From IMG/VR virus record IMGVR_UViG_3300008110_007659, positions 1 through 63,494 of that record: DNA of 63,494 bases; one strand, written 5' to 3'. How positions within the stretch are numbered: the stretch's first letter is position 1; each line of letters begins with the position of its first letter. This stretch comes from a virus. The position numbers were made by a program, and so were the translations under genes. The notes under the pieces are model-generated. The model did not search any database. It was not told the DNA's origin and was given only the letters and a program-made list of their open reading frames with translations. Of the stretch, positions 3,060 to 42,950 are shown piece by piece.

Positions 3060-3060
3060 A

Positions 3061-4413: not shown

Positions 4414-4434
4414 TATTTTTTTAAGGATAATCCT

Positions 4435-24926: not shown

Positions 24927-26033
24927 ATGGTAGTAGATATAAACGTAACAAGTATCTGCAATTTAGCTTGCACATATTGTTCCGAAGGTTTTGAATGTGG
25001 ACTATCTACCGAGTTTGAAGAAAATACTTCTTTGACATTAGATAATGTTGAAGAATTTATGGCTAAAATTTCTGATCCCAAAAAAGATGTTTATTTCTGG
25101 GGTGGTGAACCATTTGTTAATTGGGATTTTTGTAAAGGTGTCATAGAAAAATTTAAACATGATCCTGGTTTTTCTTTTTTCTTTTATACAAATGGAACGT
25201 ATTTAAAGAGATATTTAAAAGATTTGGTTAGAATTCACAATGAGATTCCCGGTAGATTAAAGTTGCAGGTTTCATATGATGGAAAGCCTGTAAACGACAT
25301 CGCCAGAGTGACTAAATCTGGTACTCCATCGTCAGCAATGGTCAAAGCAAACTATATTGCAGCTAAAGAAGCTGGATTGAATGTTTCACTGAAATCTGTA
25401 CTAACGTCTGAAAATTTCCACTTAATCTATGAAGCCTTTTTGGATGTCATAGAAATGGATAAAAATTATTTTCCAACACCAGATTTATACAGCCAATTGA
25501 CAGAAGAAGAATTTATGCCTAAATTGGAAGTATTAAAGGATGGATTGAAGAAAATTGCTAAACATATTTACGAAAATAAATTACCTCCTGAGAAGTTTGG
25601 ATGGTTCCAACAATCTAGAGCTCTATGTGCAGCAGGTATAAATTACGTAAGTGTTGATTTAAACGGCGATTTGAGTCCTTGCCATGGATGCATGTACAAA
25701 GAATCGCATTCACATAAATTAGGAAATATTTTTAAAGTTGCAGATTTGGATCAGTTGATTGAAGAAAAATCTCAAATGTATAAGGATGCGTTGAAGAATC
25801 AACCTTTAGATTGTATGAACTGTGACAGTCAATTCTGTATGAAATGTAATGCGGCAACTTATGAAAAATCAGAAAAAGAAACATATCTAGAAAAATGGAG
25901 TGATCATACAGCAAATTGGCAAGTCTGTAAAGTATTTAAGACAAACGAGATAGTACATCACGCATTAAGAACTGCACTAAAGAGTTATAAAAAGCCTGTA
26001 ATTAAAATTCAGGCTGAACAGTGTACAGTATAA
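24927..26033 (+). CDS. Radical SAM protein with SPASM domain (peptide-maturase type)
   Basis: 368 residues. The radical SAM cluster motif is Cys11-x3-Cys15-x2-Cys18 (CNLACTYC), with WGGEP at 58-62 for SAM binding and YTNG at 87-90. The C-terminal SPASM domain has Cys234 (LCAAGINYVSVDLNGDLSPC), Cys252, Cys255, Cys296, Cys299, Cys304, Cys307 and Cys334, enough for two auxiliary [4Fe-4S] clusters as in anaerobic sulfatase-maturing enzymes and RiPP maturases. The family performs radical chemistry on peptide or protein side chains. It heads a row of four radical SAM genes upstream of the CTCNCNY-repeat protein, its candidate substrate (inference). Strong ribosome site AAAGGAG. Confidence 0.9.
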   Translation: MVVDINVTSICNLACTYCSEGFECGLSTEFEENTSLTLDNVEEFMAKISDPKKDVYFWGGEPFVNWDFCKGVIEKFKHDPGFSFFFYTNGTYLKRYLKDLVRIHNEIPGRLKLQVSYDGKPVNDIARVTKSGTPSSAMVKANYIAAKEAGLNVSLKSVLTSENFHLIYEAFLDVIEMDKNYFPTPDLYSQLTEEEFMPKLEVLKDGLKKIAKHIYENKLPPEKFGWFQQSRALCAAGINYVSVDLNGDLSPCHGCMYKESHSHKLGNIFKVADLDQLIEEKSQMYKDALKNQPLDCMNCDSQFCMKCNAATYEKSEKETYLEKWSDHTANWQVCKVFKTNEIVHHALRTALKSYKKPVIKIQAEQCTV

Positions 26034-26042
26034 GGATAATAA

Positions 26043-27167
26043 ATGTTTACATTAGAAGTAAGTGTTACTGAAAAGTGTAATCTAGGTTGTCCGTATTGTT
26101 ATGTGGCAAACAGACCAACTTGGATGACGAAAGAAGTTTTTGATCAGGGTATGAAAGACCTGCCAAAATTAATGCAAAGGTCCGGTGATAAAGATTATCA
26201 TGTAAGTTTTTTTGGTGGTGAACCTTTATTAAATTGGGACCTAATAACTCACGCTGTTCCTTATTTAAGATCGGATGATAAATGTAAAGGTATTAATATC
26301 ATCACAAATTTAACGATGATTGATCAAGATAAAGCTAATTATTTGAGAAATAATGGTGTTGGCGTTTCTTGGTCTTTTGATGGTATGAGTTCTAATGAGA
26401 GTAGACCTTTACTTCCACTTTTGGAAAATACTAATCCAGAAACAGGCGAATTGTTTGATGGTATACTTTCGATGTATGAATATAAGAAAGATATCATAAA
26501 GAATTTGACAAACGGATGTAAGGTCATGATATGGCCAGGAAATACAAAAGACATGAAAGAGAATTTTGAATTTCTCTTAGATTGGGGTATAGATCATCCC
26601 GATTTTAGTATTGTTCGTGATGATGTTTGGACAGAAGATGATATAATACAGTTTAGATATGAATGTGAAAGACTTGCAGATTTTTGGATAGAAAAGATAA
26701 AATCTGGTAAACCATGTTCAGTAGGATTTTTAAAACTAGCTATTTTAGATATTCTCTATGGTTTAGTGAAAGGTAAAAGACCTTTTGGTTGTTTTGCTGG
26801 AACTAATGGTGGAGTATTGATGAGTTCTGGGGAATTCTACCCTTGCGCTAGGTTTGCATCCAAAAAAATTATGAAAATGGATGAACAGTATAATTTTAGG
26901 TACTATCAAGACATTTTTAATCCAAAAAATTATGATAAATGTGAACCGTGTGATTTGAAACAGGTGTGTAATGCCGGTTGTACATATTCTCAAATTATGA
27001 ATGATAATAAACCATTAGATAGTATTTGTGAATTGTTCCACATATATTATGAACAAGCAATGCGAGTGGTAGATGAGTGTAAAGACGAAAGAGTTTTCCA
27101 AGATTTGGTTTTAAATTATATCGAAAATGTTGGTGTTGAAAATGAAGGTGTGGAGTGTAGGAACTAA
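26043..27167 (+). CDS. Radical SAM protein with SPASM domain, second
   Basis: 374 residues. The cluster motif is Cys12-x3-Cys16-x2-Cys19 (CNLGCPYC) with FFGGEPLLNW at 56-65. The SPASM part has Cys250 (FGCFAGTNGGVLMSSGEFYPC), Cys268, Cys300, Cys303, Cys309, Cys313 and Cys329. This resembles maturases of Cys-rich or thioether-linked peptides in general layout, though the substrate cannot be read from it. It follows the first radical SAM gene after nine bases with ribosome site AAGGATAAT and is followed by the third after one base. Confidence 0.9.
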   Translation: MFTLEVSVTEKCNLGCPYCYVANRPTWMTKEVFDQGMKDLPKLMQRSGDKDYHVSFFGGEPLLNWDLITHAVPYLRSDDKCKGINIITNLTMIDQDKANYLRNNGVGVSWSFDGMSSNESRPLLPLLENTNPETGELFDGILSMYEYKKDIIKNLTNGCKVMIWPGNTKDMKENFEFLLDWGIDHPDFSIVRDDVWTEDDIIQFRYECERLADFWIEKIKSGKPCSVGFLKLAILDILYGLVKGKRPFGCFAGTNGGVLMSSGEFYPCARFASKKIMKMDEQYNFRYYQDIFNPKNYDKCEPCDLKQVCNAGCTYSQIMNDNKPLDSICELFHIYYEQAMRVVDECKDERVFQDLVLNYIENVGVENEGVECRN

Positions 27168-27168
27168 C

Positions 27169-28017
27169 ATGAAAATTGTTTCTTGCACCAGTCAAGATAA
27201 AATTCTTAGAATTAACTGGCATATATTAAATTGGTGTAATTTAAAATGTTCCTACTGTAATGTAAAGGAACATTTGAGTTATGATTATAATGATAATACT
27301 CAAATTTCAAATAATTATAAATTGATTATAAGTAGATTAAAAACTATTTCTAAACCTTTTGAGATTTGTTTGACTGGTGGGGAACCAACATTACATCCCA
27401 ATATCGAAGATATATTAAGTGGATTAAATGAAATTGAAAATTTAACTAAAATTTATTTTTTTACTAACTTAACTAGATCAGAAAATTTTTATAAAAATAT
27501 AAAAAGTTTTTCGAAAGTTACATATTACGCATCCTTTCACCCCGAATATCACAAAGAAGATTTTTTAGATAAGTGTAAAAATCTAAACTGTGAGGTTCAT
27601 ATAAGTATGATGCCTGAATATAAAAATTACATTTTAAAAATTATTGATAAGTGTAAGTTGGAGGATATAAAATTTACATTAAATTTTTTAAGAGACACAA
27701 AATATTATTCAAGTAATTTAGAAGAAGATTTTTTCGTAGAAGCTTCTACTGCTGAATCTATGATTGATATGGATGTTTTATATGATAATGGCTTTCGAGA
27801 AAATACTACAAATTTAAGATTATTATACGATAAAAAAAATAATTTCAAAGGCTATAAATGTTTACCGGAATCTTTTCAAATAGAATTAAATAATGTAGTT
27901 AAAAATGTTTGCACTAACGAAATTATGCCATTATCTTTAAAAGATATTACGAAAAAGGTTATTTGTCCAAAAGAAGTTTGTGAAGGTGGACTTATGATGT
28001 ATCCTAAGGAAATTTAA
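27169..28017 (+). CDS. Radical SAM protein with short Cys-rich C terminus
   Basis: 282 residues from ATG 27169; an upstream in-frame start at 27127 would overlap the previous gene and is less likely. Cluster motif Cys23-x3-Cys27-x2-Cys30 (CNLKCSYC), LTGGEPTLHP at 68-77 and FTNL for SAM contact. The C terminus has Cys231, Cys248, Cys266 and Cys271 in a C-x16-C ... CPKEVC layout that could bind one auxiliary cluster. It is clearly paralogous to the protein at 34608-35510: both share GGEPTL, an SxHP motif, NFKGxxC and the terminal CPxxxC. Substrate unknown; a small-molecule or peptide target is possible. Confidence 0.85.
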   Translation: MKIVSCTSQDKILRINWHILNWCNLKCSYCNVKEHLSYDYNDNTQISNNYKLIISRLKTISKPFEICLTGGEPTLHPNIEDILSGLNEIENLTKIYFFTNLTRSENFYKNIKSFSKVTYYASFHPEYHKEDFLDKCKNLNCEVHISMMPEYKNYILKIIDKCKLEDIKFTLNFLRDTKYYSSNLEEDFFVEASTAESMIDMDVLYDNGFRENTTNLRLLYDKKNNFKGYKCLPESFQIELNNVVKNVCTNEIMPLSLKDITKKVICPKEVCEGGLMMYPKEI

Positions 28018-28346
28018 TGAAGAAAAATTTTAAAAGTATTGTATCTATACCTATTAAAGTTGAGATGCAACCAGTTGAACATCAAAGCAATAAAGTTTTG
28101 ACTGTTGATGATTTGTCGAAACAAATAGAAGAAGCTAAAAAGGGAAAAGCCAAAGTCGATAGTAAGTATGTAGGATTTGAACTGACTGAGAGAGGACATT
28201 TATTCGAATATAAATTTGATTATGTTAAATTTTTGGACAATATGTCATTCATAATCAAAACGGCAAAACAGCGTAAAGAAATGAATCCTAATAATGTCTA
28301 TACAATGGATAAAACTAAAAGTGCTAGACGAAAAAAAGAAATATGA
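28017..28346 (+). CDS. Small basic protein within the radical SAM operon, unknown
   Basis: 109 residues, Lys-rich (about 20%), with a helix LSKQIEEAKKGKAKVDSKY, a central GFELTERGHLFEYKFDYVKFLDNMSFIIKTAKQRKEMN and a basic tail. No domain is recognised. It overlaps its upstream neighbour by one base (TAATG) and the downstream radical SAM by ATGA, so it is co-translated with both. Its size would fit a small substrate-binding partner such as the RRE-like chaperones of RiPP systems, but no such fold is visible in the sequence. Confidence 0.6.
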   Translation: MKKNFKSIVSIPIKVEMQPVEHQSNKVLTVDDLSKQIEEAKKGKAKVDSKYVGFELTERGHLFEYKFDYVKFLDNMSFIIKTAKQRKEMNPNNVYTMDKTKSARRKKEI

Positions 28347-29236
28347 ACGCCGAAACTTTCAAAAAAAAGTATCCTCAAATAAATTTTTATGTAGGACATG
28401 AAACGGATAAAACTGTAACTAAAGATTCGGGAGTAAATGTATTATATTTCACAAATAAATGTAATTTAGCTTGTACATATTGTTATGAAGATTTGCCTGG
28501 TCGCCCTCCACAAATTTTGTCTAAAGAAGATATTAAAAAAAGTATCGATAGAGTTATAGAAAGAGAAGATCCCAATAGTCAAACATTATTTGTTCTTTTT
28601 GGTGGAGAAGCTACTATGGAATGGGATAATGTTTGTTATGCCATGAATTATGCCTATACAAAAAAGAAAAATGTTCATTTTAATTTAAACACAAATGGCA
28701 TAAGATACCTAAAACAAAGTTTTATAGAGGAAACAAAAAACAATTTTTTTTATAAAAAAAACTTGTTAAGTATAGACGTTAGTTTTGACGGTATAGGAAA
28801 TTCGGATAGAGTCACACACGGCGGCAAGGATTCAACTAATTTAATGATCCAAGTTTTCAGAAATTTGAGAAAAAACGCAATGAAATTTAGGATAAGATAC
28901 ACCATACATCACAAAAACGTTCATAATTGCTATGAAGATATGTCCAATATTATTAGATATTTTAAACCAACCCGTCTTATAACATCCGTTGCGTGGGAAA
29001 CTCTCAATAAAATTCAAATTGACTTGCTCCAAAACATGAAAGAAAGTCTCAGGAAAGATTGGATAAATAGGATAATTGATGTTCCAGTTTGTGAGTTATT
29101 TTGTGACATGTGTGATGGATGTGGTGAGAGAAAGGAAGTAAAAACTTATTTTACTGACGAGGGTAATGTAACCACATATGGTAATTATGAGAACTCCCCG
29201 AAATTTCATGATTTTAAAGAAAAGGTAATAATATGA
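28343..29236 (+). CDS. Radical SAM protein, GGEA variant, with four-Cys auxiliary site
   Basis: 297 residues. Cluster motif Cys40-x3-Cys44-x2-Cys47 (CNLACTYC) after a 35-residue N-terminal extension. The SAM-binding GGEP motif reads GGEA (87-90). LNTNG follows at about 114-118 and VSFDG at 144-148. The C terminus has Cys250, Cys254, Cys257 and Cys260 (CELFCDMCDGC), a compact potential fourth-cluster site, then TDEGNVTTYG. The protein lies two genes upstream of the repeat substrate candidate, and its stop overlaps the ATG of the intervening small gene. Confidence 0.88.
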   Translation: MNAETFKKKYPQINFYVGHETDKTVTKDSGVNVLYFTNKCNLACTYCYEDLPGRPPQILSKEDIKKSIDRVIEREDPNSQTLFVLFGGEATMEWDNVCYAMNYAYTKKKNVHFNLNTNGIRYLKQSFIEETKNNFFYKKNLLSIDVSFDGIGNSDRVTHGGKDSTNLMIQVFRNLRKNAMKFRIRYTIHHKNVHNCYEDMSNIIRYFKPTRLITSVAWETLNKIQIDLLQNMKESLRKDWINRIIDVPVCELFCDMCDGCGERKEVKTYFTDEGNVTTYGNYENSPKFHDFKEKVII

Positions 29237-29625
29237 GCACTGATAGAGAAATTGTAATTGAAAAGTTAACGAGTATTTCACAAAATATTAAAGAGATATC
29301 GGAATATGATGAAGGCCTCGCCAACTTAATTTGGATAGGTTTTGACACAGCTATGAGTTTAGCACAATCTATTTCTGAAAATAATGAGAAAAAGGAACAA
29401 ATTGATATTTCTGTTTACATTCAACAAATTTGTGATGCTTTGGGTGTTGATATTGAACAAATGGTTTTATCAATTATTCAAAATAACAATACTCAAGAAT
29501 CTAGTAATAAAGAGCCGGACTTGGAAACTTTAGACTTTATAACATCCGATCTTGATGACTATGAAAAGTTTTTAGCAAAAAGTTCAGCAAAAAATAATTT
29601 AGATTTTTTATCAAAGGAAATATAA
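29233..29625 (+). CDS. Acidic helical protein next to the repeat protein, unknown
   Basis: 130 residues, acidic, mostly helical: an N-terminal EKLTSISQNIKEISEYDEGLANLIWIGFDTAMSLAQSI, a middle SVYIQQICDALGVDIEQMVLSII and an acidic tail LETLDFITSDLDDYEKFLAKSS. No known domain is evident. It is coupled to the preceding radical SAM gene by ATGA overlap and ends one base before the CTCNCNY-repeat gene. This position between maturase and substrate candidate suggests an accessory or leader-binding role (inference from position only). Confidence 0.6.
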   Translation: MSTDREIVIEKLTSISQNIKEISEYDEGLANLIWIGFDTAMSLAQSISENNEKKEQIDISVYIQQICDALGVDIEQMVLSIIQNNNTQESSNKEPDLETLDFITSDLDDYEKFLAKSSAKNNLDFLSKEI

Positions 29626-29626
29626 G

Positions 29627-30235
29627 ATGGCTTTAGGTAAAATGTTTGACACTACTCTTGGAGTAGGTACTAACACAACTCCTGCTGGTGAACATAAAAG
29701 GCTATCAATAACTATACAAGGAACTGTTGGTAGTAATGCAGTGAATTATGATCTTGCGAATGTTGTAGCTGGAGAGGATTTAATAACTAGATCGTTTTTT
29801 CAATCGCTGCTTGATAAAGCAAAAGAAGAAAATACGAGAAGGGGAGGCAGCGCCACTAAAGGTTCGTTATCAACAACAAACATTAGAGCTGCCGACTTTA
29901 ATAATATCCGAGCACTTTTTGCTGTTGCCGATTCTAGGACAAATCAAGTTTATAATGATTGGTCTGGTGCAAATGCTAATTTGCCTAATGGTCCGACAGT
30001 AAATAGTCCCACAATAACAACCTTTCCTACTACTGCTGCACCAACTGGTGTTCCAGCAGCAGTTACCACAGATCCAGCAACTCAAATTAGAGCTACAATT
30101 CTGAATTCTCTCATTAATGCTTTGAATTCTGCTGGGCAAGTTTGCACCTGTAATTGTAATTATTGTACTTGTAATTGCAATTATTGTACATGTAACTGTA
30201 ATTACGCATGTACCTGCAACTGTAATTACTCCTAA
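29627..30235 (+). CDS. Protein with four C-terminal CTCNCNY heptapeptides; candidate radical SAM substrate
   Basis: 202 residues. Residues 1-110 form a probable folded or leader region (MALGKMFDTTLGVGTN, LSITIQGTVGSNAVNYDL, DLITRSFFQSLLDKAKEEN). Residues 115-150 are a low-complexity Pro/Thr linker and 152-171 a helix (ATQIRATILNSLINALNSAG). The tail 173-202 consists of four identical heptapeptides CTCNCNY, the last separated by one Ala and followed by a terminal Ser. There are twelve Cys in the tail and none before it. Four radical SAM genes lie immediately upstream and four downstream. The layout of a long leader plus a short repetitive Cys/Asn/Tyr core is that of a RiPP precursor (inference); alternatives are a metal-binding virion protein or a secreted Cys-rich protein. 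Confidence 0.8.
   Translation: MALGKMFDTTLGVGTNTTPAGEHKRLSITIQGTVGSNAVNYDLANVVAGEDLITRSFFQSLLDKAKEENTRRGGSATKGSLSTTNIRAADFNNIRALFAVADSRTNQVYNDWSGANANLPNGPTVNSPTITTFPTTAAPTGVPAAVTTDPATQIRATILNSLINALNSAGQVCTCNCNYCTCNCNYCTCNCNYACTCNCNYS
30143..30232 (+). repeat. Tandem 21-base repeat encoding CTCNCNY x4
   Basis: Four 21-base units at 30143, 30164, 30185 and 30209, the last preceded by a GCA codon. All encode the same seven residues, yet they differ from each other at several third positions (for example TGC/TGT, ACC/ACT/ACA, AAT/AAC, TAT/TAC). All visible differences are synonymous, so the peptide rather than the DNA is being kept constant. Confidence 0.9.
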
Positions 30236-30246
30236 TTAAAAATATT

Positions 30247-30708
30247 ATGTTTTTTCAACTAAATCATTTAGAAGAAACCAATATGTCTTACATAAGACAT
30301 TTTAATCATGGAATAAGATTGGGATCTTGGTTATTTTTGTGTTCCATCATTTTTTTAATTTATTGTCTTTTCTCTTTAAAATTTTTAGAAAACTTTGTGA
30401 TAGCACGAATAAACACAATGTATCATGGATTAATGTTGCGATGGTTTGAAGATGAAACATTTAATCGTGGAAAACCAGAAAAAGATGTTTTAGAAGAAAA
30501 GAAATATAAAAAGCAGTATGTAAAATTGATCGAAGATGGAATGATAAATCCTTTCAATAAAGTTAAAATATTTAATGGACTGTTAATTGCATCCATTACT
30601 AGTATAACACATTCTTTTATACCACAAATATTTGTGCATCATGCTGCCACCAATGTAATAAGATTATATTTTAATTATAAAATAATGGAGAAATTAAATG
30701 AAAAATGA
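30247..30708 (+). CDS. Membrane protein of DUF6356-like type
   Basis: 153 residues. The N-terminal part has an NHLEETNMSYIRHFNHGIR motif, which fits the H-x-x-E-x-x-x-S-Y-x-x-H pattern of DUF6356, followed by a membrane segment at about 27-46 (GSWLFLCSIIFLIYCLFSL). A second weakly hydrophobic stretch lies near 112-130. The middle is charged (RGKPEKDVLEEKKYKKQYVKLIEDG). Being directly downstream of the Cys-repeat protein (11 bases), it might anchor, export or protect against the product, but the family has no established function. It overlaps the next gene by 11 bases. Confidence 0.65.
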   Translation: MFFQLNHLEETNMSYIRHFNHGIRLGSWLFLCSIIFLIYCLFSLKFLENFVIARINTMYHGLMLRWFEDETFNRGKPEKDVLEEKKYKKQYVKLIEDGMINPFNKVKIFNGLLIASITSITHSFIPQIFVHHAATNVIRLYFNYKIMEKLNEK

Positions 30709-31102
30709 TAGAGTTGAAATTGAAGGTATTGATGCGAATACTTATGCTGGAAAAGCAATTAATGCATGTAAGTTAAAAGCAAGAGGAATTTTTGGAGATG
30801 AACTTTTAACTTTTAAACTTTTGGATTTTGTAAGTTTTTTAATGTTAAATAATGAATTTACGTCAAAAGGTTATTTTATTAGTGAACATAATAGGGAAGA
30901 AATTTATATAAAAATTATAGAAACTGGTGATATACAATTAATAAATGATTTGGAAAAATATATTAATCTTAGAGATTCTATAAAAGAATTACAAAGAAAA
31001 AAAGATGAATTTTACGATATTATTGAAAAATTAAATAATTTATCAAACTTGAATGATGAAACGAGTGTTAATGAAATTGTAGAGTCTTATCTAAGGAGAT
31101 AA
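30698..31102 (+). CDS. Unknown helical protein
   Basis: 134 residues. An N-terminal half (DRVEIEGIDANTYAGKAINACKLKARGIFGDELLTFKLLDFVSFLM) without recognised motif is followed by a charged helix with coiled-coil character (NLRDSIKELQRKKDEFYDIIEKLNNLSNL). Overlaps the membrane-protein gene by 11 bases and precedes the sulfotransferase-like gene by two, so it is part of the operon. Function not recognised. Confidence 0.55.
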   Translation: MKNDRVEIEGIDANTYAGKAINACKLKARGIFGDELLTFKLLDFVSFLMLNNEFTSKGYFISEHNREEIYIKIIETGDIQLINDLEKYINLRDSIKELQRKKDEFYDIIEKLNNLSNLNDETSVNEIVESYLRR

Positions 31103-32101: not shown

Positions 32102-32980
32102 GTGTCTTTAGTAAATCTGAGAAACTATGATTTAGTTATAACTACTTCATTTGGTTTCAAATTTGGAATTTGTGGTCATTTATTTGAAATGATTGAATAT
32201 TATTGGGCTATAAAAAATTGGACAAATCTAAATCCTTGTATACTATTGTCCGATGGTACTACAATAGACGAATTTAATATAGCTTTAAACACGAAATATG
32301 ATAATCTAGTTGTTGAAAATTTAATATACCATCCTTTTCCAAAACTATTATTGTCAAAAAATTTATTGATAGTTGACGGATCTTCAAGACTTGATAATTC
32401 GGAAATATATACAGATAATTTTTTTCTATTCAGATGTCATGAAAAAAATTATGACTTTTATATAAACAATAAAGCGCAATGTCACTTATTTCAAGATTTT
32501 GAAATATATGATGATATTCCTAAAAAAATAAATGTTTTTGATTATAAGAAAAAATTATTATATTCAAAATTTAAAAAAATAAATGATGATGTAGAAAATT
32601 CTGTAATGTTTTATTTGACAGATGTTAGTAGATTTATGTCTGAAGAAACAATAACTGAAATTTCCAATAAATATTCTTTCAACAACACAGTAGTATTTAC
32701 AAATAAACCAGAACTTTATACAAAAATAAAAACATATAAAGTTCCAGTCCCAGACATGTGGAATAAATTTTCTACATATGTTTATACTAAATTACCTGGC
32801 AAAAAAGATTGTTCCAATAGATTTATTTTAGAGTGTATGCACTATGATAAAGAAGTTGTTTATGATATAGATTATTATGATAAAGCTTTAGAAATTAGAA
32901 AAAAGGATGGAATAAAAAATACATCTTTAGAACAAGGTGATTTTTTTATCAATTATATCAATGAACAAATTAAGTGTTAA
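32102..32980 (+). CDS. Putative glycosyltransferase
   Basis: 292 residues from a GTG start four bases after the preceding gene. The N terminus (VITTSFGFKFGICGHLFEMIEYYWAI) looks like a Rossmann-type opening. A C-terminal TYVYTKLPGKKDCSNRFILECMHYDKEVVYD matches the last segment of GT-B-like phage proteins, where a RFIxEC-x(2)-Y-x-KEV motif is common. Donor and acceptor cannot be predicted. Its end overlaps the following radical SAM gene by 20 bases. Confidence 0.5.
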   Translation: MSLVNLRNYDLVITTSFGFKFGICGHLFEMIEYYWAIKNWTNLNPCILLSDGTTIDEFNIALNTKYDNLVVENLIYHPFPKLLLSKNLLIVDGSSRLDNSEIYTDNFFLFRCHEKNYDFYINNKAQCHLFQDFEIYDDIPKKINVFDYKKKLLYSKFKKINDDVENSVMFYLTDVSRFMSEETITEISNKYSFNNTVVFTNKPELYTKIKTYKVPVPDMWNKFSTYVYTKLPGKKDCSNRFILECMHYDKEVVYDIDYYDKALEIRKKDGIKNTSLEQGDFFINYINEQIKC

Positions 32981-33953
32981 AAAAATACTGATAGATTATG
33001 ATAGACCTATTAACAATAGAGCTAAATTAGATACTGGTAAACTCTGTAATTATAAATGTGAATTTTGTTACTATAAAAATAGTTTGTCTGAGAGAGATGA
33101 ACTTGATAAAATCTACAAAAGAATAGATTATTTACTTGACTATGGCATAAAAGAAATCGATCTTAGTGGTGGTGAAAGTAGTGTAGAACCGAATTGGTTT
33201 AATATATTAAATTATTGCCAAAATAAATTTGATAGAATTAGTTGCCTTAGTCACGGAGGTAAATTTAGTGATAAAGAATTTATTCAAAAAAGTTTCGACT
33301 TAGGTTTAAGAGAGATACTCTTTAGTCTACATTGTACGGATGAAAGTGTTCATGATAAAATTGTAGGCAAAAAAGGAGCTTTTAAAAATTTAATTAAAGC
33401 TATTGAGAACTCCCACCGTTTAAATATTGAAGTTAGATTGAACACAACTGTATATCATGAAAACTACAATAAAATAGACACTTCTTTTATAAAATCTTTA
33501 AACCCCACCCAAGTTAATTTTATTGCTCTCAATTATTGGAGAGACAATAAAGATTTTTATCCTATTGATTACGGAACAATTTGTTCCTATGTTTCAAATT
33601 ATATTGATGACCTTAAGGACTCAACCGAAGTTAATGCTAGATATTTTCCTTATTGTTTTATGCCATCAAAAGAAAAATATATAAAAAACCATTATCATCA
33701 TATATATGACTTTAAAGATTGGAATAAAGCGGTTTATAGTGGAACATTAGACACTAAAAAAAATTATACGCACAATGAAAAAGTAGAACATTCTTTCTCT
33801 GAAGCGGAACGAATGAGAATTTATAGTTACTTTAAAACCGAAGAATGTACAAAGTGTAAATATTTTTATATATGTGATGGTATAGAAAATGAACTTAAAG
33901 ATAAAGTTAGTCCAAATCCTGTTTTTGGAGAAAAGATAAGATTAATATGGTAA
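32961..33953 (+). CDS. Radical SAM protein, GGES variant
   Basis: 330 residues from ATG 32961; an ATA/ATT-rich in-frame extension to 32937 lies deep in the previous gene and is unlikely. Cluster motif Cys29-x3-Cys33-x2-Cys36 (CNYKCEFC), SAM motif DLSGGESS at 67-74, and LREILFSLHCTDESVHDKIVG typical of the radical SAM core. The C terminus carries Cys296, Cys299 and Cys305 (CTKCKYFYIC), which could bind an extra cluster with a fourth ligand elsewhere. It lies between two probable glycosyltransferase genes, so a sugar-linked substrate is as likely as a peptide. Confidence 0.87.
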   Translation: MNKLSVKKILIDYDRPINNRAKLDTGKLCNYKCEFCYYKNSLSERDELDKIYKRIDYLLDYGIKEIDLSGGESSVEPNWFNILNYCQNKFDRISCLSHGGKFSDKEFIQKSFDLGLREILFSLHCTDESVHDKIVGKKGAFKNLIKAIENSHRLNIEVRLNTTVYHENYNKIDTSFIKSLNPTQVNFIALNYWRDNKDFYPIDYGTICSYVSNYIDDLKDSTEVNARYFPYCFMPSKEKYIKNHYHHIYDFKDWNKAVYSGTLDTKKNYTHNEKVEHSFSEAERMRIYSYFKTEECTKCKYFYICDGIENELKDKVSPNPVFGEKIRLIW

Positions 33954-34633
33954 ACATTGATTTATCTATTTTAATACTTACGCATAATAGGCCTAAACTT
34001 TTTGAAAGAAGTTTAAATTCAATTTTATCATATTTAACTCCAAAAATAGAAGTAATTGTAAATAATGATAGTTCTGATATAAAAGAAATTGAAAATACTA
34101 ATGTAAATTATTATTATGAAAAATTTAATAATATATCAAGTGTATATGAATTTTTATTTCTTAAGTCTAAAGGAAAATATATTTATTTTTTGGAAGATGA
34201 TGACTATTTGAGGAAGCAATTTTTCGAACAAAGTTTTGATGCTGATATTATAGCTGGAAATTATTGTCCTACCTATAAGCCAGATAATACTTTTGAAATA
34301 ATAAATTTGTTTAAAGATGAAGTTATACACGATAAATGTGAATTTTTAAATAAATTAAACTTAGAACATTTACAATTAGGACAATTTATATTTAAAAGAA
34401 GTGTAATTGAAGATTTTTATTTTGGAATAGATAACAATATTCATAATGATATTAGACTGGTCTATCACGCTTCACAAAAGTCGAAGAAATTTAGAATGAC
34501 CAATAAAGTATTTTACTACCAAACAAAAGATGGTAATGATAATATTTCTTTTCCTGGAACAAAAAAAAGTATAAACGTAACGGCATCTTTGGACTTTTTA
34601 AAAAATTATGAAATACAAAATACAACATCATAA
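33947..34633 (+). CDS. Family 2 glycosyltransferase
   Basis: 228 residues. The GT-A start DLSILILTHNRPKLFERSLNSIL, the nucleotide-contact EVIVNNDSSD (about 35-44) and the metal-binding FLEDDDYL (81-88) identify a GT2-type transferase. Shorter than many GT2 proteins (usually 250 or more) but with the catalytic core. It should transfer a sugar from a nucleotide donor to a glycan or other acceptor. It overlaps the radical SAM gene before it by seven bases and the one after it by 26. Confidence 0.8.
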   Translation: MVNIDLSILILTHNRPKLFERSLNSILSYLTPKIEVIVNNDSSDIKEIENTNVNYYYEKFNNISSVYEFLFLKSKGKYIYFLEDDDYLRKQFFEQSFDADIIAGNYCPTYKPDNTFEIINLFKDEVIHDKCEFLNKLNLEHLQLGQFIFKRSVIEDFYFGIDNNIHNDIRLVYHASQKSKKFRMTNKVFYYQTKDGNDNISFPGTKKSINVTASLDFLKNYEIQNTTS

Positions 34634-35510
34634 AGATCAAGATCCGGATCATATTAATATTCATTGGGATAGTCTTACTATTTGTCAACTCAAGTGTTCT
34701 TATTGTTACGCTAGAAATGAGTATGGTAAAGAATGGGGTAAACTATCTAGTAAAAAAACAATTGATGCTGTATTGGATGCTTTAAATCGAAGTAGTTTGA
34801 ATTTTAATTTGGGTTTGTTGGGTGGCGAACCAACTTTAGGTCCTTATTATTACCATATTTTAGACTCAATCAGTAAAATGGAGAAATTTAATTGGGTTTA
34901 TGTTGTAACAAATGCTGAAAAGGATTTGACACTTCACCCACATTATGATAAACTGGCTTTCCTATTCAGTTACCACCCGGCCGATTGTACGGATGAAAAT
35001 AGATTTCTCAATAATATACATCATATGCTGGGTAGAGGTTATAAATGTAAAGTGAATGTTATGCTTCACCATGATAAAAGTTTATGGCCAAAAATAAAAA
35101 ATATGTTTGAAACTTTGGAAAAAATACCCAATTTAAAAATACATCCACACTTTTTATATGGTAATAGTATCACTAAATTGTTTAACTATAGAAAAGATTT
35201 TTGGGAATATTTTTCTTTTTTAGAGTCGTATGAAAAAGAATTAAAATATGATGATGATTTTTTTAATGATTATATTATATTTAGGGATAAATTAACCAAT
35301 TTTAAAGGATGGAATTGTTACAACAATAATTATGAAATTGACGTTAGAGGTAACGTTGTTAAATTTTGTATGCCAAAAACTGATAATATTAATCTCATAA
35401 GCAATAGAGATTTTTTTAAAAATATAACCAAAACTGTTCCTATGGTTTGTCCACATAAAGCTTGCAATTGTGATGGTCTTTTAAAACAATTAAAAATTAA
35501 AAATGAGTAA
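34608..35510 (+). CDS. Radical SAM protein, paralogue of 27169-28017
   Basis: 300 residues. Cluster motif Cys26-x3-Cys30-x2-Cys33 (CQLKCSYC), LGGEPTLGP at 71-79 and FLFSYHPAD. The C terminus has Cys237, Cys254, Cys281, Cys286 and Cys288 in the same NFKGxxC ... C ... CPxxxC arrangement as its paralogue, suggesting one auxiliary cluster. It may share reaction type with that protein but act on another position or substrate. Overlaps the following gene by eight bases. Confidence 0.87.
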   Translation: MKYKIQHHKDQDPDHINIHWDSLTICQLKCSYCYARNEYGKEWGKLSSKKTIDAVLDALNRSSLNFNLGLLGGEPTLGPYYYHILDSISKMEKFNWVYVVTNAEKDLTLHPHYDKLAFLFSYHPADCTDENRFLNNIHHMLGRGYKCKVNVMLHHDKSLWPKIKNMFETLEKIPNLKIHPHFLYGNSITKLFNYRKDFWEYFSFLESYEKELKYDDDFFNDYIIFRDKLTNFKGWNCYNNNYEIDVRGNVVKFCMPKTDNINLISNRDFFKNITKTVPMVCPHKACNCDGLLKQLKIKNE

Positions 35511-36261
35511 GATTGTTGAATGGGAAATTACACTTAAATGTAATTATAAATGTGAGTATTGTACAAATTTGGATCCTAGTATGCGACCAGAATTGACTGA
35601 AGAAAAAATAAAAGATTTTATAAAAAAATTAGGTGAGACATATCCCGGTGTAGAAATATTTATTTTTGGAGGGGAACCATTTGTTCATCCAAAAATAAAT
35701 TTTATAATAAAAACATTTAATGAATATAATATTCCATTTGTTATACAGACGAACTTCAGTAGTTATAGTAGAAAAACAATTCAAAAAATAAAAGATCCAT
35801 TTAAAATTAATATAAGTGTTCATCCTACAGAAACGTCTATAGAAGATATAGTTCAGGGATTAAAAGATACTAAAGTTAATATTAAAACTATAGATGTGAT
35901 GTACACCGGTAAAGAAGCTATAGATTATTATTTTGCAGTAAAAAAATCTTTAGACCACGACAATTTATTTTTAACTCCAGTAACAGACTTTGGTGATGGT
36001 CATAGTGATACTTTACTCGCACAATATCTTTCTTTAAAAAACAATTTAATGTATCGAAAAATAATTAAATTTGAAGATATTGAAAGACTAGGTAAACAAC
36101 GAAGTGATCTTTGGATAGATTCTAATTTTAACACTTTTGGAAAACCTTGTTTATATAAAGATAAATACTTCCTCTACTCACCCAACTTAGATTTGTATAA
36201 CTGTTGTTATAGAATCAAAGTCAACAAATTGTGCCCGAAAACAAAATGTTTTCTAATGTAA
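35503..36261 (+). CDS. Compact radical SAM protein
   Basis: 252 residues. Cluster motif Cys13-x3-Cys17-x2-Cys20 (CNYKCEYC), FIFGGEPFVHP at 53-63, QTNF for SAM contact and INISVHPTE. The C terminus again has Cys216, Cys234, Cys235, Cys244 and Cys249 (ending CPKTKCFLM), a shortened form of the layout in the neighbouring radical SAM proteins. Start overlaps the previous gene; the stop is one base before the U32-like gene, a frequent type of Fe-S neighbour. Confidence 0.87.
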   Translation: MSKIVEWEITLKCNYKCEYCTNLDPSMRPELTEEKIKDFIKKLGETYPGVEIFIFGGEPFVHPKINFIIKTFNEYNIPFVIQTNFSSYSRKTIQKIKDPFKINISVHPTETSIEDIVQGLKDTKVNIKTIDVMYTGKEAIDYYFAVKKSLDHDNLFLTPVTDFGDGHSDTLLAQYLSLKNNLMYRKIIKFEDIERLGKQRSDLWIDSNFNTFGKPCLYKDKYFLYSPNLDLYNCCYRIKVNKLCPKTKCFLM

Positions 36262-36262
36262 T

Positions 36263-37096
36263 ATGAGATATCTTTTAGCCGGAGCTTTTAGTAAGTTTGT
36301 TCCCTTAATAAAATTTTTAAGTCAAAACATAGTCGATTCTAAAGAGTTGGTGGTTTATGACGGCATTAATAAATGTAAATGGAATGGAGGTAGAATAAAC
36401 AGGGATGTTTATTATAAAGATAATTTGATAGAATATTATTATAGTAAGAATATCAAGATTGCTTTAACATTTAGTAATCATAATATTGATTTGACTGACG
36501 AATTGGGAAATCATTTACTGGAGAAATTTCACAAAAAAGGAAATGCTTTAATTATTGTGAATGATGACTTGAGAAAATATGTTAGAGAAAAATTTCCATT
36601 ATACGATTTAATTTACAGTATTACTGGAATGGGACTATTAAACATACCTTTACAAGATAAAGATATAGAATTTTATAAAAAATTGGAAGAAAATTATGAT
36701 TGGATCGTTCCTAGGTTTGAACACATATTTGATCCTAGGTCTAACGAACTGGACAAAACAAAGTGGGAAGTAATGCTGAATGATACTTGTGTTTATGGAT
36801 GTAAACATTGGGATGCACACTTCAAGGCAATTGCAGATGAAAATACCGCCGGTAGACCGTATAGTAAGGAAGTGGAAGAATGTTGGCTTCCTAAGTTTGA
36901 TTTCAACAAAGATAGTAAATATGAATGTATGGATATAAAACCATTAGCGATGGAAAAATTAATAAAAGATGGAGTTAGGAGTTTTAAAATTACTGGTAGA
37001 GAAATGAAAGATGATGAATACTATGGAGAATTAATGAGATTCGTTTTAAATAGCAAATCTGTTAATATTGTAAAATGGCCAACTGGGAAAAAATAA
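36263..37096 (+). CDS. U32-peptidase-like Fe-S protein, copy 1
   Basis: 277 residues. The C-terminal DGVRSFKITGREMKDDEYY (238-254) matches the G-[IV]-x-x-F-K-I-x-G-R signature of the U32 family (UbiU/UbiV, RlhA), whose members are Fe-S-dependent hydroxylation enzymes rather than simple peptidases. Four Cys at 176, 180, 207 and 222 could hold one [4Fe-4S] cluster, as in UbiU/UbiV. NGGRIN at 41-46 and VNDDLRKYVREKFPLYDLIYSITG are shared with the second copy at 39343-40203. The substrate is unknown; an oxygen-independent hydroxylation inside the island is a reasonable guess. It overlaps the next gene by 22 bases. Confidence 0.6.
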   Translation: MRYLLAGAFSKFVPLIKFLSQNIVDSKELVVYDGINKCKWNGGRINRDVYYKDNLIEYYYSKNIKIALTFSNHNIDLTDELGNHLLEKFHKKGNALIIVNDDLRKYVREKFPLYDLIYSITGMGLLNIPLQDKDIEFYKKLEENYDWIVPRFEHIFDPRSNELDKTKWEVMLNDTCVYGCKHWDAHFKAIADENTAGRPYSKEVEECWLPKFDFNKDSKYECMDIKPLAMEKLIKDGVRSFKITGREMKDDEYYGELMRFVLNSKSVNIVKWPTGKK

Positions 37097-38148
37097 AAGT
37101 AGTTAGAAAAAAAGAGGACATGCAAGTTGGGCAAATAAAGCCTAAATGTTCTTACAAGGTTTTACAATTAAACAACAGTTCAATAATGGAGTCTAAGTAT
37201 GTCGTTACATTTAGAATTACTGAAGCGTGCGACCTCAAATGTAATTATTGTCACTGGCATAGTGGTAAACATTACAAATACGAAGATATTATAAAAACGA
37301 TTGATAAGATATTTGAATTCTTACAAAAAAATAAATTAAAGTCTGTTCTGTTTTACTATCATGGTGGAGAACCAACAACACATCCTAAGATAGTTGATAT
37401 TCTGAAGTATATTCATGATAAGGGAAAACAAACAAATATTATTGCGTCTAATGAGATGCAAACCAATTTGACTTTAAAAGAATCAAAGTTAAAAGAAATA
37501 CTACCATATTGTGACCTTTTTAATGTAAGCTTTCATTACTTGGAATTAAAAAGATTAAAAAAATTTAATAATTTTAATCACAATTGGAATCTTTTAAAAG
37601 AAATGAATGTGGAGATTCATAATTTAGATATCATGTTGGAGAATGTGGAGAGAACTCATTTATTTTATAATGGAGAAATTATTGAAATATATCCAGATGA
37701 GTTCTATAGTAGTATTGTAGATTATCTGAAATATGATAAAATTGTTAATAGTGAAATGATATATGGATTTTGTCACTACAAATACCCTCCAGAAATCGAA
37801 GCTAAACATATGGAGTTTTATAAAAAATATAATAAAACAGAACAGAAATATCTTATAGATGATGTTGAGTATACCACGAATGATTTATTTAAATTCGGTA
37901 TAGATGCTAGAGGTTGGCATTGTGCAGCCGGTAATGAAAGTATAACAATTAATGGTGATGGTAATGTTTTTAATTGTGGTATTCATATGACAAACTACAT
38001 ACGAGAAAGTTCTCCAGAAAAAGCATATACAAATTTAGTACATGATGAAATTGGGGTAACAAAATTAACTTTATTATATAAAACTGGCACAATATGCCGT
38101 TGGGATTATTGTGGCGGCGATTTTTACTTAAGTAGAAAACCCAAATGA
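37075..38148 (+). CDS. Radical SAM protein with twitch-like C terminus
   Basis: 357 residues. An N-terminal extension of about 40 residues precedes Cys52-x3-Cys56-x2-Cys59 (CDLKCNYC); YHGGEPTTHP is at 95-104. The C-terminal part has Cys283, Cys301, Cys341 and Cys346 (GWHCAAGNESITINGDGNVFNC ... CRWDYC), the G-x-G-x-V-x-x-C spacing of SPASM/twitch domains. The start at 37075 overlaps the U32-like gene by 22 bases; ATG codons at 37120 or 37186 are alternatives. It is the eighth and last radical SAM gene of the island. Confidence 0.87.
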   Translation: MANWEKIKVVRKKEDMQVGQIKPKCSYKVLQLNNSSIMESKYVVTFRITEACDLKCNYCHWHSGKHYKYEDIIKTIDKIFEFLQKNKLKSVLFYYHGGEPTTHPKIVDILKYIHDKGKQTNIIASNEMQTNLTLKESKLKEILPYCDLFNVSFHYLELKRLKKFNNFNHNWNLLKEMNVEIHNLDIMLENVERTHLFYNGEIIEIYPDEFYSSIVDYLKYDKIVNSEMIYGFCHYKYPPEIEAKHMEFYKKYNKTEQKYLIDDVEYTTNDLFKFGIDARGWHCAAGNESITINGDGNVFNCGIHMTNYIRESSPEKAYTNLVHDEIGVTKLTLLYKTGTICRWDYCGGDFYLSRKPK

Positions 38149-38160
38149 GGATTGATAATT

Positions 38161-38763
38161 ATGTCAGAAATAATTTCATTGTTTCCAATTAATGTTTTAG
38201 TTGAAAAAATAAATGTCGATTGGAATAAAGATAAAGTGATAGAACACATTGAGAACTATTTAAAAAAACAATGTAAAACTGGAGAAGTAGGAGAAGATTT
38301 ACACAAACAAGAAGTATTCAGTCCAATAGTAAAATTTATGAATGATAGTGTAAACAACTATTGGAAATTATTAAATTATTCCAATCATTTTCCAATTGAA
38401 ATGACAAGTATGTGGGCTAATAGACATGATAGACATCATGATAGACCACATGATTTGGATGTTGATGGACCTGCAATTATATCAGCTGTTTTTTATGTTC
38501 AAAAAGAAAGTTCTCAAATGGGAAATTTATATTTTGGAAATCCCATTGAATTAATTTGGCAAACACAACCACTATCCGAATCGAGGCGCCATGAAAATAG
38601 ATATTTTGAATTTGATGGTAGAACTGGTGATTTAATTTTTTTCCCTAGTTGGTTACAACACGGCATAAGGCAAAATAAAACCGATATACCTAGATATTCT
38701 ATAGCTGCAAACTTTGAATTGAGAGGTATTAAAATGATTAAACAATTGTCTAAGAAAAAATGA
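38161..38763 (+). CDS. 2-oxoglutarate/Fe(II)-dependent oxygenase-like protein
   Basis: 200 residues from ATG 38161 with AGGA upstream; a TTG at 38152 is an alternative. The layout fits the phage-common 2OG-FeII oxygenase group: SMWANRHDRHHDRPHD (about 83-98, first metal ligands), AIISAVFYVQKE, GNLYFGNP, then GDLIFFPSWLQHGIRQN with His167 and RYSIAANF with Arg178 as the likely 2-oxoglutarate contact. The family hydroxylates proteins or small molecules. It sits after the last radical SAM gene and its stop overlaps the next start (ATGA). Confidence 0.75.
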   Translation: MSEIISLFPINVLVEKINVDWNKDKVIEHIENYLKKQCKTGEVGEDLHKQEVFSPIVKFMNDSVNNYWKLLNYSNHFPIEMTSMWANRHDRHHDRPHDLDVDGPAIISAVFYVQKESSQMGNLYFGNPIELIWQTQPLSESRRHENRYFEFDGRTGDLIFFPSWLQHGIRQNKTDIPRYSIAANFELRGIKMIKQLSKKK

Positions 38764-40996: not shown

Positions 40997-41676
40997 AAAA
41001 AGAAATTTTAGAATATTCTTTTGAAAAAGATGTTGCTCATATACCTTCAGCTTTATCAATGTCGGACTATATTGAGGAGTTGTTTAGTGAAAAATTAGTA
41101 ACACCTGACGATAAAATAATAATAGGAAAACCTTTTGGAGCTCAAGCCTATTATATAATATGGAAAAAAATGGGATATTTGGATGATATACATAAATTAA
41201 GTCCTGTTTTAAAAATGAGTGAAGTTGATTTTGTAGATTTTTCTGAAGAAACTATGGGAGATTCATTGGGTATAGCAGCAGGCATAGCTCTAACTACAGA
41301 AAAATTAGTTTGGGTAAATCTATCTGATGCAACTTTACAAATGGGACCAACACTTGAAGCAATACAGTTTATAGGACAAAATTGTTTAAAGAATGTTTTA
41401 GTAACAGTTGATTATAATGGAACTCAAGTAACGGGGTATACAAAAGATATAATTAATACTGATCCTATCGTAGACATGTTTAGAGGATATAATTGGGAAG
41501 TATTTCATGATTTGAACAATTTTAGTATTGGTAAAAAGCCTAAAGTTTTTATTATGAAAACAATTAAAGGTAATGGAATACCAAGCATGGAAAAGGATAT
41601 AAAAAAATGGCATTACAGGAAAATACAATCACAAGAAGAATTACAGTCGTTGGTGCAGGAACTTCAGGTTATTTAA
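40993..41676 (+). CDS. Transketolase-like N-terminal (TPP-binding) subunit
   Basis: 227 residues. MGDSLGIAAGIAL (88-100), then VWVNLSDATLQMGPTLEAIQFIGQN and VLVTVDYNGTQVTG correspond to the TPP/Mg-binding region of split transketolases, usually GDG(x~25)N. Here GDG reads SDA (111-113) while the Asp, Glu122 and Asn142 are kept. The pyrimidine-binding half is encoded separately at 42919-43398, with a halogenase gene in between. The pair would transfer a two-carbon unit or form an acyloin from an unknown substrate. Its 3' end overlaps the halogenase gene by 70 bases. Confidence 0.75.
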   Translation: MKKEILEYSFEKDVAHIPSALSMSDYIEELFSEKLVTPDDKIIIGKPFGAQAYYIIWKKMGYLDDIHKLSPVLKMSEVDFVDFSEETMGDSLGIAAGIALTTEKLVWVNLSDATLQMGPTLEAIQFIGQNCLKNVLVTVDYNGTQVTGYTKDIINTDPIVDMFRGYNWEVFHDLNNFSIGKKPKVFIMKTIKGNGIPSMEKDIKKWHYRKIQSQEELQSLVQELQVI

Positions 41677-42950
41677 CTGTTTTATATTTTTGCAAAAAAT
41701 ATCCTGATATGCAGGTGACATGGATTTATCCAGAAGTCAACCAGCCCATAGGTGTTGGTGAAGCAACAGTACCACAAGTTCAAAGATTTTTAGCTGAGTT
41801 GGGAGTATCTGTTCAAGATATGATATTACATTGTAATGCAAATTTAAAAATTGGAGCAATGTTTGAAAATTGGTCACCAACACAAAAATCTTTTTTTCAT
41901 CCATTTGGATCCACAGATGAAAATTGTTTGGATTTGGAGTGGTACTTAAAAAATAATCAAATTCCACCAAATATTTTAGAAGCTTATCCCGAAACATTAG
42001 AATATATGTTGGAGAATGATGATTTTCCAGATTTTGCAACAAATTTTGATGTAAGAGAATTGTGTAAGTACTTGGATAAAATTTTTGAAAATTTTAAAAA
42101 TTTAAAAGTAATACGTAAAACTATAACAGATGTTGATGAAATTGAAGATGATCACATCATAGATGCCACAGGATTCTCCAAAACATTAATCAATAAAACT
42201 GATAAAGAAAATTTCAAAAGTATTAAACACATTATACCTAATAATAAAGCTTTTGTTTATCGAGCTGAATATTCCGATAAAGAGAATCAACAACAACCTT
42301 ATACAACAATTACCGCGGTGACGCATGGTTGGATATGGACTATACCATTGAAAGATGTTATAACATTTGGTCACGTACATGATGATCGTTACGACACTAA
42401 ACAAGAATACATAAATTTTGTGGAGTCTAGACTTGGTTACAAAATAGACGAATCTAAAATTGTTGAAGTTAAAATGATTACTGGTAGGAATATAAAACAT
42501 TTTAGAAAACAAGGAAACAAGTCGATTTATTCAATTGGTTTAAGTTCTTATTTTATTGAACCTATAGAAGCTACAGGATTATATCTTGCAACTTATGGTA
42601 TTAAATTATTAGATCGTCTGTTAAAAAATGAAATAACCGTGGATGAGTATAACAATGATTATAACAGAGAATTTGATGCTGTTACAGACTTTATTACTAC
42701 ATATTATAAATTTTCAAAAAACTCTAATGAATATTGGGATCATTTTAAAAAATTAAATATAGAAACTCATAGGAAAAATAATATTTTTCCGGCCAGAAGT
42801 TGGAATTTAATATTATCTGGAATGGGACAAGAAGAAAAAAAATACAAAATAAAAGCAGAACGTATAATAAAAATTAGAAAAAATAATGTAAAATATAGTG
42901 AATGGTTAAAAGAATTTCATGAGAAAAACTCTACATCAATATCTAAGTAA
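41607..42950 (+). CDS. Flavin-dependent halogenase-like protein, copy 1
   Basis: 447 residues, similar to tryptophan-halogenase-family enzymes. The FAD motif is VVGAGTSGYLT (14-24) and IGVGEATVP is at 48-56. Lys81 in CNANLKIG aligns with the catalytic Lys79 of PrnA. The halogenase signature W-x-W-x-I-P is intact (Trp242, Trp244, Pro247), and SSYFIEPIEATG (313-324) carries the catalytic-Glu block. The family oxidises halide with FADH2 and O2 and halogenates an electron-rich substrate; a cyanophage relative, VirX1, halogenates small aromatic substrates. A flavin reductase would come from the host, as none is seen here. The 70-base overlap with the transketolase gene is unusual. Confidence 0.85.
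   Translation: MALQENTITRRITVVGAGTSGYLTVLYFCKKYPDMQVTWIYPEVNQPIGVGEATVPQVQRFLAELGVSVQDMILHCNANLKIGAMFENWSPTQKSFFHPFGSTDENCLDLEWYLKNNQIPPNILEAYPETLEYMLENDDFPDFATNFDVRELCKYLDKIFENFKNLKVIRKTITDVDEIEDDHIIDATGFSKTLINKTDKENFKSIKHIIPNNKAFVYRAEYSDKENQQQPYTTITAVTHGWIWTIPLKDVITFGHVHDDRYDTKQEYINFVESRLGYKIDESKIVEVKMITGRNIKHFRKQGNKSIYSIGLSSYFIEPIEATGLYLATYGIKLLDRLLKNEITVDEYNNDYNREFDAVTDFITTYYKFSKNSNEYWDHFKKLNIETHRKNNIFPARSWNLILSGMGQEEKKYKIKAERIIKIRKNNVKYSEWLKEFHEKNSTSISK

Follow-up and report, generated by a model that had tools for sequence, protein, structure and literature searches.

We describe a conserved set of phage genes in which a putative fibre protein carrying a tandem array of cysteine-rich heptapeptides occurs together with radical SAM enzymes of three families, here called A, B and D. 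We propose that these enzymes modify the array, which would form the tip of the fibre, most likely by thioether cross-links, and we place the probability of this reading, drawn from comparative sequence analysis, at roughly 0.7. The value stands this high because the core of the proposal is that the array is the substrate of A, B and D, a part that seems quite likely and more so than the whole; the bond is named as the most likely one only, and by analogy with characterized enzymes a thioether would be about an even choice once the array is taken as the substrate. The stretch of DNA analysed, called the window below, comprises all 63,494 bases of an IMG/VR virus record and encodes T4-like baseplate wedge proteins; the features of its array module are listed in Table 1.

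Table 1. Features of the array module in the window
Feature	Position	Strand	Basis
Maturase A, radical SAM with full SPASM Cys set	24927..26033	+	Pfam, NCBIfam, alignment
Maturase B, radical SAM with canonical SPASM Cys set	26043..27167	+	Pfam, NCBIfam, alignment
109-aa helper; relatives in 30 of the loci searched	28017..28346	+	
Maturase D, radical SAM with short four-Cys C-terminal motif; beside heptad, not hexad, arrays	28343..29236	+	
130-aa helper, gene located after D and before the array gene; relatives at 22 of the searched loci	29233..29625	+	
Cys-array protein, 202 aa, candidate substrate	29627..30235	+	ORF translation
Predicted helix (residues 156-170), immediately N-terminal to the array	30092..30136	+	Relatives' alignment, AlphaFold model
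Four CTCNCNY heptads, Ala separating copies 3 and 4	30143..30229	+	Repeat coordinates
Final Ser codon, position equivalent to the scissile Ser of relatives' S74 chaperones	30230..30232	+	
134-aa protein (phrog_25260), usually just downstream of the array	30698..31102	+	

An earlier note on this DNA described a 202-residue protein ending in four identical CTCNCNY heptapeptides, with all twelve cysteines in the tail and none before it, encoded amid a run of radical SAM genes. Translation and repeat coordinates agree with that description: the tail reads VCTCNCNYCTCNCNYCTCNCNYACTCNCNYS, the first Cys is residue 173, and eight radical SAM ORFs lie in the window. The four copies are indeed identical, though they do not make up the whole tail, as the fourth copy is preceded by an Ala and followed by a Ser; all Cys fall within the last 31 residues, which hold the four heptads, this Ala and the final Ser. 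At the DNA level the 21-nt copies begin at 30143, 30164, 30185 and 30209 (spacings 21, 21 and 24), and summed over the six copy pairs they show 22 nucleotide differences, all synonymous, with no amino acid change. It is therefore the peptide and not the DNA repeat that is conserved, and selection appears to act on the heptad peptide, the repeats being the same in protein and diverged in DNA. An origin of the array by DNA slippage was considered and dropped on the same grounds, the copies having diverged in DNA, and only synonymously. The degenerate heptad pattern gave no match in 100 dinucleotide shuffles of the window.

Neither Pfam nor NCBIfam scans of the window protein matched any family, and its single clear PHROG match, phrog_26958, is a PHROG without assigned function. 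A tblastn search with the protein against 50,697 phage records returned nothing, the repeat most likely having been filtered as low complexity. The AlphaFold model has a pLDDT of 68.9 overall and about 35 in the array, which is unstructured in the model; this argues neither for nor against modification. With this model Foldseek gave a best E of 0.039 and none below 0.001, so that the fold was not identified, and no match to the array protein was found among solved structures.

A similarity search made without a profile recovered 32 viral loci with relatives of the array protein. The motif CTC[ND]CNYC found 49 viral contigs among 2.9 million, seven of which (L001-L007) encode a protein 100% identical to that of the window, and 13 stretches in prokaryote assemblies, where tandem arrays occur in L082, L087, L088 and L091 and the remainder are mostly single chance matches. 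In L082, L088 and L091 the array proteins have radical SAM neighbours on contigs binned as Thermoplasmata or Chloroflexi; these may come from viruses, archaeal or otherwise, or be phage contigs placed in the wrong bin. The 42 distinct heptad-array proteins have arrays of 3 to 28 heptads, 378 altogether. The three Cys are kept in all 378 by definition of the search motif; Asn or Asp occupies position 4 in 329, Asn position 6 in 327, and Tyr, Phe or His position 7 in 367. An extra residue precedes the final heptad in 31 of the 42 proteins. The N-terminal halves of the relatives differ, and what they have in common is the array and a short helix-like segment before it, partly conserved as I.A..IN.LI..IN.AG.VC, which is a candidate recognition element. 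In L009 (6009-8606) and L013 (7950-10016) three or four tandem genes have different N-terminal halves and nearly the same arrays, as if each phage had several alternative tips.

When 120 radical SAM rows taken from array loci were placed in a tree, three families, A, B and D, proved to recur beside the array, in three gene orders: A-B-(C)-109aa-D-130aa-array as in the window, a nearly gapless B-D-A-array, and array-A-B-D. All eight radical SAM genes of the window were considered as one set, and this was dropped, only A, B and D being shared by most array loci. The five non-core radical SAM genes lie at 27127-28017, 32937-33953, 34608-35510, 35503-36261 and 37075-38148. The same cluster has a putative 2OG-Fe(II) oxygenase (38152-38763, PF13759), possibly a further protein-modifying enzyme; the window also encodes a tryptophan halogenase-like gene (41607-42950, PF04820, 220 bits) and what looks by eye like a second halogenase copy (43972-45237).

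Enzymes A, B and D score 59, 47.2 and 47.4 bits against PF04055 (gathering score 29.5), and their CxxxCxxC motifs begin at residues 11, 12 and 40, respectively; judged by the length before the radical SAM motif, A and B have no N-terminal RRE of the CteB type. The SPASM consensus consists of GX4C plus a four-Cys and a final Cys set, with two auxiliary clusters. Seven Cys of this kind are invariant over 21 rows in A (C234, C252, C296, C299, C304, C307, C334) and likewise in B (C250, C268, C300, C303, C309, C313, C329), of which A alone reaches the Pfam SPASM model, barely at the cut-off. D has no seven-Cys SPASM set and only C250, C254, C257 and C260 at its C-terminal end. The best NCBIfam match of both A and B is the PapB ranthipeptide maturase NF047865, whose cut-off of 340 bits is reached by none of the three (A 78.5, B 132.2, D 79.9), as is also the case for the SCIFF maturase TIGR03974 (cut-off 425 bits; A 49.7, B 87.4, D 55.1). 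The nearest solved structure to A and to B is 5wgg (94.8 and 120.9 bits), which we take to be CteB.

A heptapeptide search for radical SAM neighbours had been suggested in the earlier note, with homologues lacking such neighbours held to speak against its idea. Among the 49 contigs found by the heptad motif alone, 44 carry a radical SAM domain, and above 100 bits family A is present in 40 and family D in 40, the 41st record in each scan being a cross-match to the other family. In the five records without any radical SAM gene the array lies no more than 1.8 kb from a contig end, which makes them uninformative. G021 and G046 have arrays and no A above 100 bits, and G010 and G043 have arrays and A with no D. 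A search with family B alone gave 52 loci, and at 47 of them an array lies no farther than 10 kb away; of the others, L116, L125 and L150 are truncated by the end of the contig, L113 represents a deletion variant of the L115 population, and L135, with 5.5 kb of sequence beyond A and no array, is a true exception.

The family A search took the best 80 of 542 relatives, and from L214 on the matches belong to other radical SAM groups. From 73 hand-listed loci, 58 distinct A proteins were kept after dropping A rows that were identical, shorter than 280 aa or below 180 bits, which removed L172, the array-less twin of L161. Using Cys-density thresholds that we chose, 52 of these 58 A proteins have a Cys array nearby: 32 have heptads, 17 hexads (a second design, described below) and 3 other Cys-rich designs. 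The six without one comprise L164 and L165, at contig ends, and the real exceptions L178/L179 (near-identical), L135 and L273. D is present within the stretch examined in 27 of the 32 heptad rows versus none of the 17 hexad rows, and two of the five D-less heptad rows are Campylobacter phages that have D elsewhere in the genome. The heptad or hexad state requires 2 changes on the A tree, and the link between D and heptads may follow that tree as one event. Many loci are near-copies and all are of shared phage ancestry, and the counts given here are not independent. In L113 (12638-13087), as in L172 and L260, the flanks are identical to L115 and about 285 array-holding bases are missing; the three are one population, and either a deletion variant or an assembly error could account for them. 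Different Cys-rich repeats (e.g. CSCNATCYGY units) near other radical SAM genes were seen in L214, L216, L217, L218 and L227, and perhaps belong to a wider class of modified phage proteins. Comparative genomics thus lends good support to the idea, put forward in the earlier note, that radical SAM maturases modify the tail, with the restriction that only A, B and D of the eight track the array; the pairing also extends to many divergent phages and to a second array type, a wider scope than that note gave it.

This second design lies directly downstream of A and has CxC every six residues, e.g. CICNSDCSCNLVCSCHNDCGCNY, followed by SDxRLK. Hexad arrays were first exposed by the A search, which was built solely from heptad loci. 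A separate scan with a hexad motif returned 17 contigs, and the 14 that have A are exactly the 14 with a genuine hexad array protein, 9 of them already known via the A search and 5 new. The remaining three are two chance frames and L233, whose 805-aa Cys-rich protein (2480-4894) is of another design, dense in CNTDC-type units, on a contig without family A. When a hexad array protein was used as the tblastn query, the phage collection yielded no match. As a control, 34 loci were collected for family F (34608-35510), which belongs to the same cluster without being a core radical SAM; for 12 of them the presence of A was tested directly and for 22 taken from the A searches or from array contigs holding A. 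An array lies within 10 kb in 26 of the 28 F records with A (not in the L260 deletion variant or L273) and in none of the 6 without A. Whole-record motif checks of these six found no clustered heptads and no hexad array; five had 0 or 1 hexad-motif match, and the sixth, G069, had matches at its end. This terminal Cys repeat was rejected, since the long open frame there reads Ala-Pro-Ala-Thr. The 134-aa gene is present at 87 of 114 loci with a Cys-rich array-like ORF, of both array types (a total that includes L150, flagged solely by a reverse-strand Cys-rich frame), and it is absent from all six A-less F loci; its product may be an assembly or recognition helper.

Homologues of A and B among the 50,697 phage records were found in 15 Firehammervirus records and a few gut fragments, the latter being 3 (A) and 7 (B) short human-gut matches of at most 29% identity; in IBB_35, B is on another contig. 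A hexad-type A query matched the same 15 records only, and a nucleotide search, which would miss distant copies, found the array gene in the same 15 records as A. This link to Campylobacter phages was reached through an IMG/VR contig. In CPt10 the gene for A lies at 164.1 kb, 2.3 kb from the array gene, while B is at 17.8 kb and D at 84.7 kb, so that the three enzymes are scattered in the Campylobacter phages and yet kept. The CPt10 array protein, CPt10_1891, has its heptads internally, followed by further Cys-rich sequence. In CP21 (L018 genome) and in G045 the A gene is interrupted by stops (CP21_110/CP21_111), unlike in other Firehammerviruses, either by decay or by sequencing error. Timms et al. 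in 2010 reported a gene with a 21-bp intragenic repeat and 11-12 radical SAM genes as separate facts, and proposed a metabolic role for the radical SAM proteins (PMC2853527); a role in DNA methylation was proposed by Carvalho et al. in 2012 (PMC3322345). In the available portions of these two papers the repeat gene and the radical SAM genes are not connected. The legend of Figure 3 of the 2010 paper (PMC2853527) names 11 virion bands of CP220, and the array protein of this phage, CPT_0180, is missing from them, which counts against the reading proposed here.

These observations bear on an alternative in which the virion tip formed by the array simply binds metal or is held by disulphide bonds, and the three enzymes, travelling together in a hypervariable tail module, act instead on sugars, a cofactor or DNA. 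Such a module would suit the presence in the cluster of sugar genes, halogenases, a 2OG oxygenase and radical SAM genes of other families, and the available portions of the earlier papers propose metabolic or DNA-protecting functions for the Campylobacter phage enzymes (PMC2853527, PMC3322345). We nevertheless regard this alternative as improbable, as F without A does not predict arrays, A predicted an array type not seen before, and A, B and D are retained in the Campylobacter phages without being linked.

The place of the array within its protein is a further line of evidence. PF13884 (Peptidase_S74) begins directly after the last Tyr of the array in several relatives, and it matched 7 of the 10 array proteins scanned (E <= 0.01), six above the gathering score and L202 below it. 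In T5 pb1 this chaperone self-cleaves at Ser1264, with Lys1269 activating, according to the accessible part of the report (PMC4690869). Across 74 distinct Cys-rich segments, an S....K of the SDxRLK type, with the +5 spacing of T5 pb1, follows the last CxC[NDHAQ][YFH] in 40, another 10 end within two residues of that motif, and 24 do neither. The window protein has no PF13884, consistent with its 0 Pfam matches, and ends at Ser; several relatives end 11-12 residues beyond the Ser position. In L201 (11745-12461) the Cys array is followed, where others have S74, by a weak intein/Hint match (E 0.0024, below cut-off), perhaps another self-cleaving domain placed after the array. Relatives of the array protein match tail and virion PHROGs, an annotation by similarity. 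The most plausible view of the array is that it forms the C-terminal tip of a fibre-like protein, and we infer that it is present in the virion. Since a self-cleaving S74 domain follows the array in relatives, the tip would be modified and kept rather than cut out as a peptide: self-cleavage at the Ser that follows the array would free the chaperone, so that the mature protein would end in the array, and in the window the gene already stops at this Ser.

The arrangement of the tail, with its Cys confined to the repeats and maturases encoded upstream, had led the earlier note to compare the protein with a leader/core precursor, and these features would also be expected of a true RiPP, the tail of which would leave the protein as a small free peptide such as a toxin or signal. 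The anatomy suggests otherwise, since the array belongs to a fibre-like protein and in many cases an S74 chaperone comes after it. We consider the release of a peptide very improbable, given also that the array lies in mid-protein in the Campylobacter phages, that relatives match tail and virion PHROGs, and that no peptidase or exporter match occurred among the part of the window genes scanned with Pfam.

Our preferred reading is that a fibre-like virion protein with a cysteine array at its C-terminal tip would be the substrate of radical SAM enzymes that the phage devotes to it, two or three in number: A and B, which have SPASM domains, and D, whose auxiliary motif is shorter. They would act in the host cytoplasm, ahead of fibre trimerisation. 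SPASM radical SAM enzymes catalyse many types of reaction, and CxC and CxCxC are classic metal-ligand spacings. Both facts would suit other chemistry on the same array, such as epimerisation, methylthiolation, oxidation, C-C cross-linking or the building of a metal or Fe-S tip. The strict alternation of Cys would fit one face of a strand on a three-fold axis, the joint occurrence of the three enzymes, of which D goes with heptads, suggests more than one reaction, and the profile scores of A and B lie under every NCBIfam family cut-off. We think such chemistry unlikely, since thioether formation is the activity of the closest relatives of A and B, both among solved structures and among curated families, and all three Cys are found in 378 of 378 heptads, by the definition of the motif. 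Because the heptad Cys have Thr, Asn and Asp as neighbours and A and B resemble CteB and PapB, thioether cross-linking is the most likely outcome. The bond would then run from a Cys sulphur to a carbon atom in a neighbouring Thr, Asn or Asp residue, as in the products of CteB, PapB and QhpD, enzymes that in the available parts of two papers link Cys to Thr, Cys to Asp and Cys to Asp/Glu, respectively (PMC8326336, PMC8172795). According to the same partial source PapB requires Cys-X3-Asp (PMC8172795), a spacing that is not regularly offered by the heptad and whose absence counts against a PapB-type bond. The product would be a rigid, cross-linked tip, possibly metal- or receptor-binding; that it acts at the cell surface is a guess. 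In its broadest form, with receptor-binding fibre tips built by radical chemistry across this whole class of tailed phages, in two designs with different enzyme sets (A, B and D for heptads; A and a B-like enzyme, or A alone, for hexads), the proposal could go either way.

The earlier note knew of no described phage system of this type, and none emerged in searches of the open-access literature, which turned up no paper linking such arrays with radical SAM genes in phages. Many uncultured phages, together with the Campylobacter group, probably rebuild part of their own virion chemically. If confirmed, this would be a new kind of virus modification and, in its broadest form, the first case of a viral receptor-binding tip built and covalently remodelled by enzymes, a structural use of radical SAM peptide chemistry in which RiPP-like reactions serve virion architecture instead of secreted peptides. 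It would also offer a testable answer to the puzzle of the 11-12 radical SAM genes in Campylobacter group II phages, and stable or metal-binding tips for receptor binding may turn out to follow a new principle; a fibre tip produced in the absence of its maturases might lack activity. The predicted enzyme-substrate set, with isolated phages at hand, provides new maturases to mine for cross-linking chemistry.

Among the closest known systems are the Firehammerviruses CP220, CPt10 and CP21, isolated phages with the array gene, A, B and D, though in them, unlike in the window, the array is internal and further Cys-rich sequence follows it. The S74 fibres T5 pb1 and K1F endosialidase resemble the relatives with PF13884 directly after the array and a Ser with Lys at +5; the window protein differs in lacking the S74 domain and stopping at Ser, and the accessible part of the source on T5 pb1 mentions neither a cysteine array nor a radical SAM partner. 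Ranthipeptide and SCIFF systems (CteA-CteB, PapA-PapB) share a Cys-rich C-terminal region and adjoining SPASM enzymes, to which A and B are nearest by profile, whereas the scores of A and B are far under the curated cut-offs, neither, by the length before its radical SAM motif, has an N-terminal RRE, and the phage substrate would be a 202-aa fibre-like protein with two or three maturases and no Cys-X3-Asp. QhpD makes Cys-to-Asp/Glu thioethers in a protein subunit, as described in the available text of two papers (PMC8172795, PMC8326336), and it offers the precedent of a radical SAM enzyme cross-linking a subunit, the small subunit of quinohemoprotein amine dehydrogenase, that stays in its assembly. 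For the QhpD family TIGR03906, with its cut-off of 453, B reaches 77.8 bits, and the QhpD product is an enzyme, unlike the presumed virion fibre of the phages. The chemistry is of a known kind, that of SPASM peptide maturases, and QhpD already modifies a protein subunit; what appears to be new is its use, in a conserved enzyme-plus-tip module of phages, presumably acting on the virion, with two array designs.
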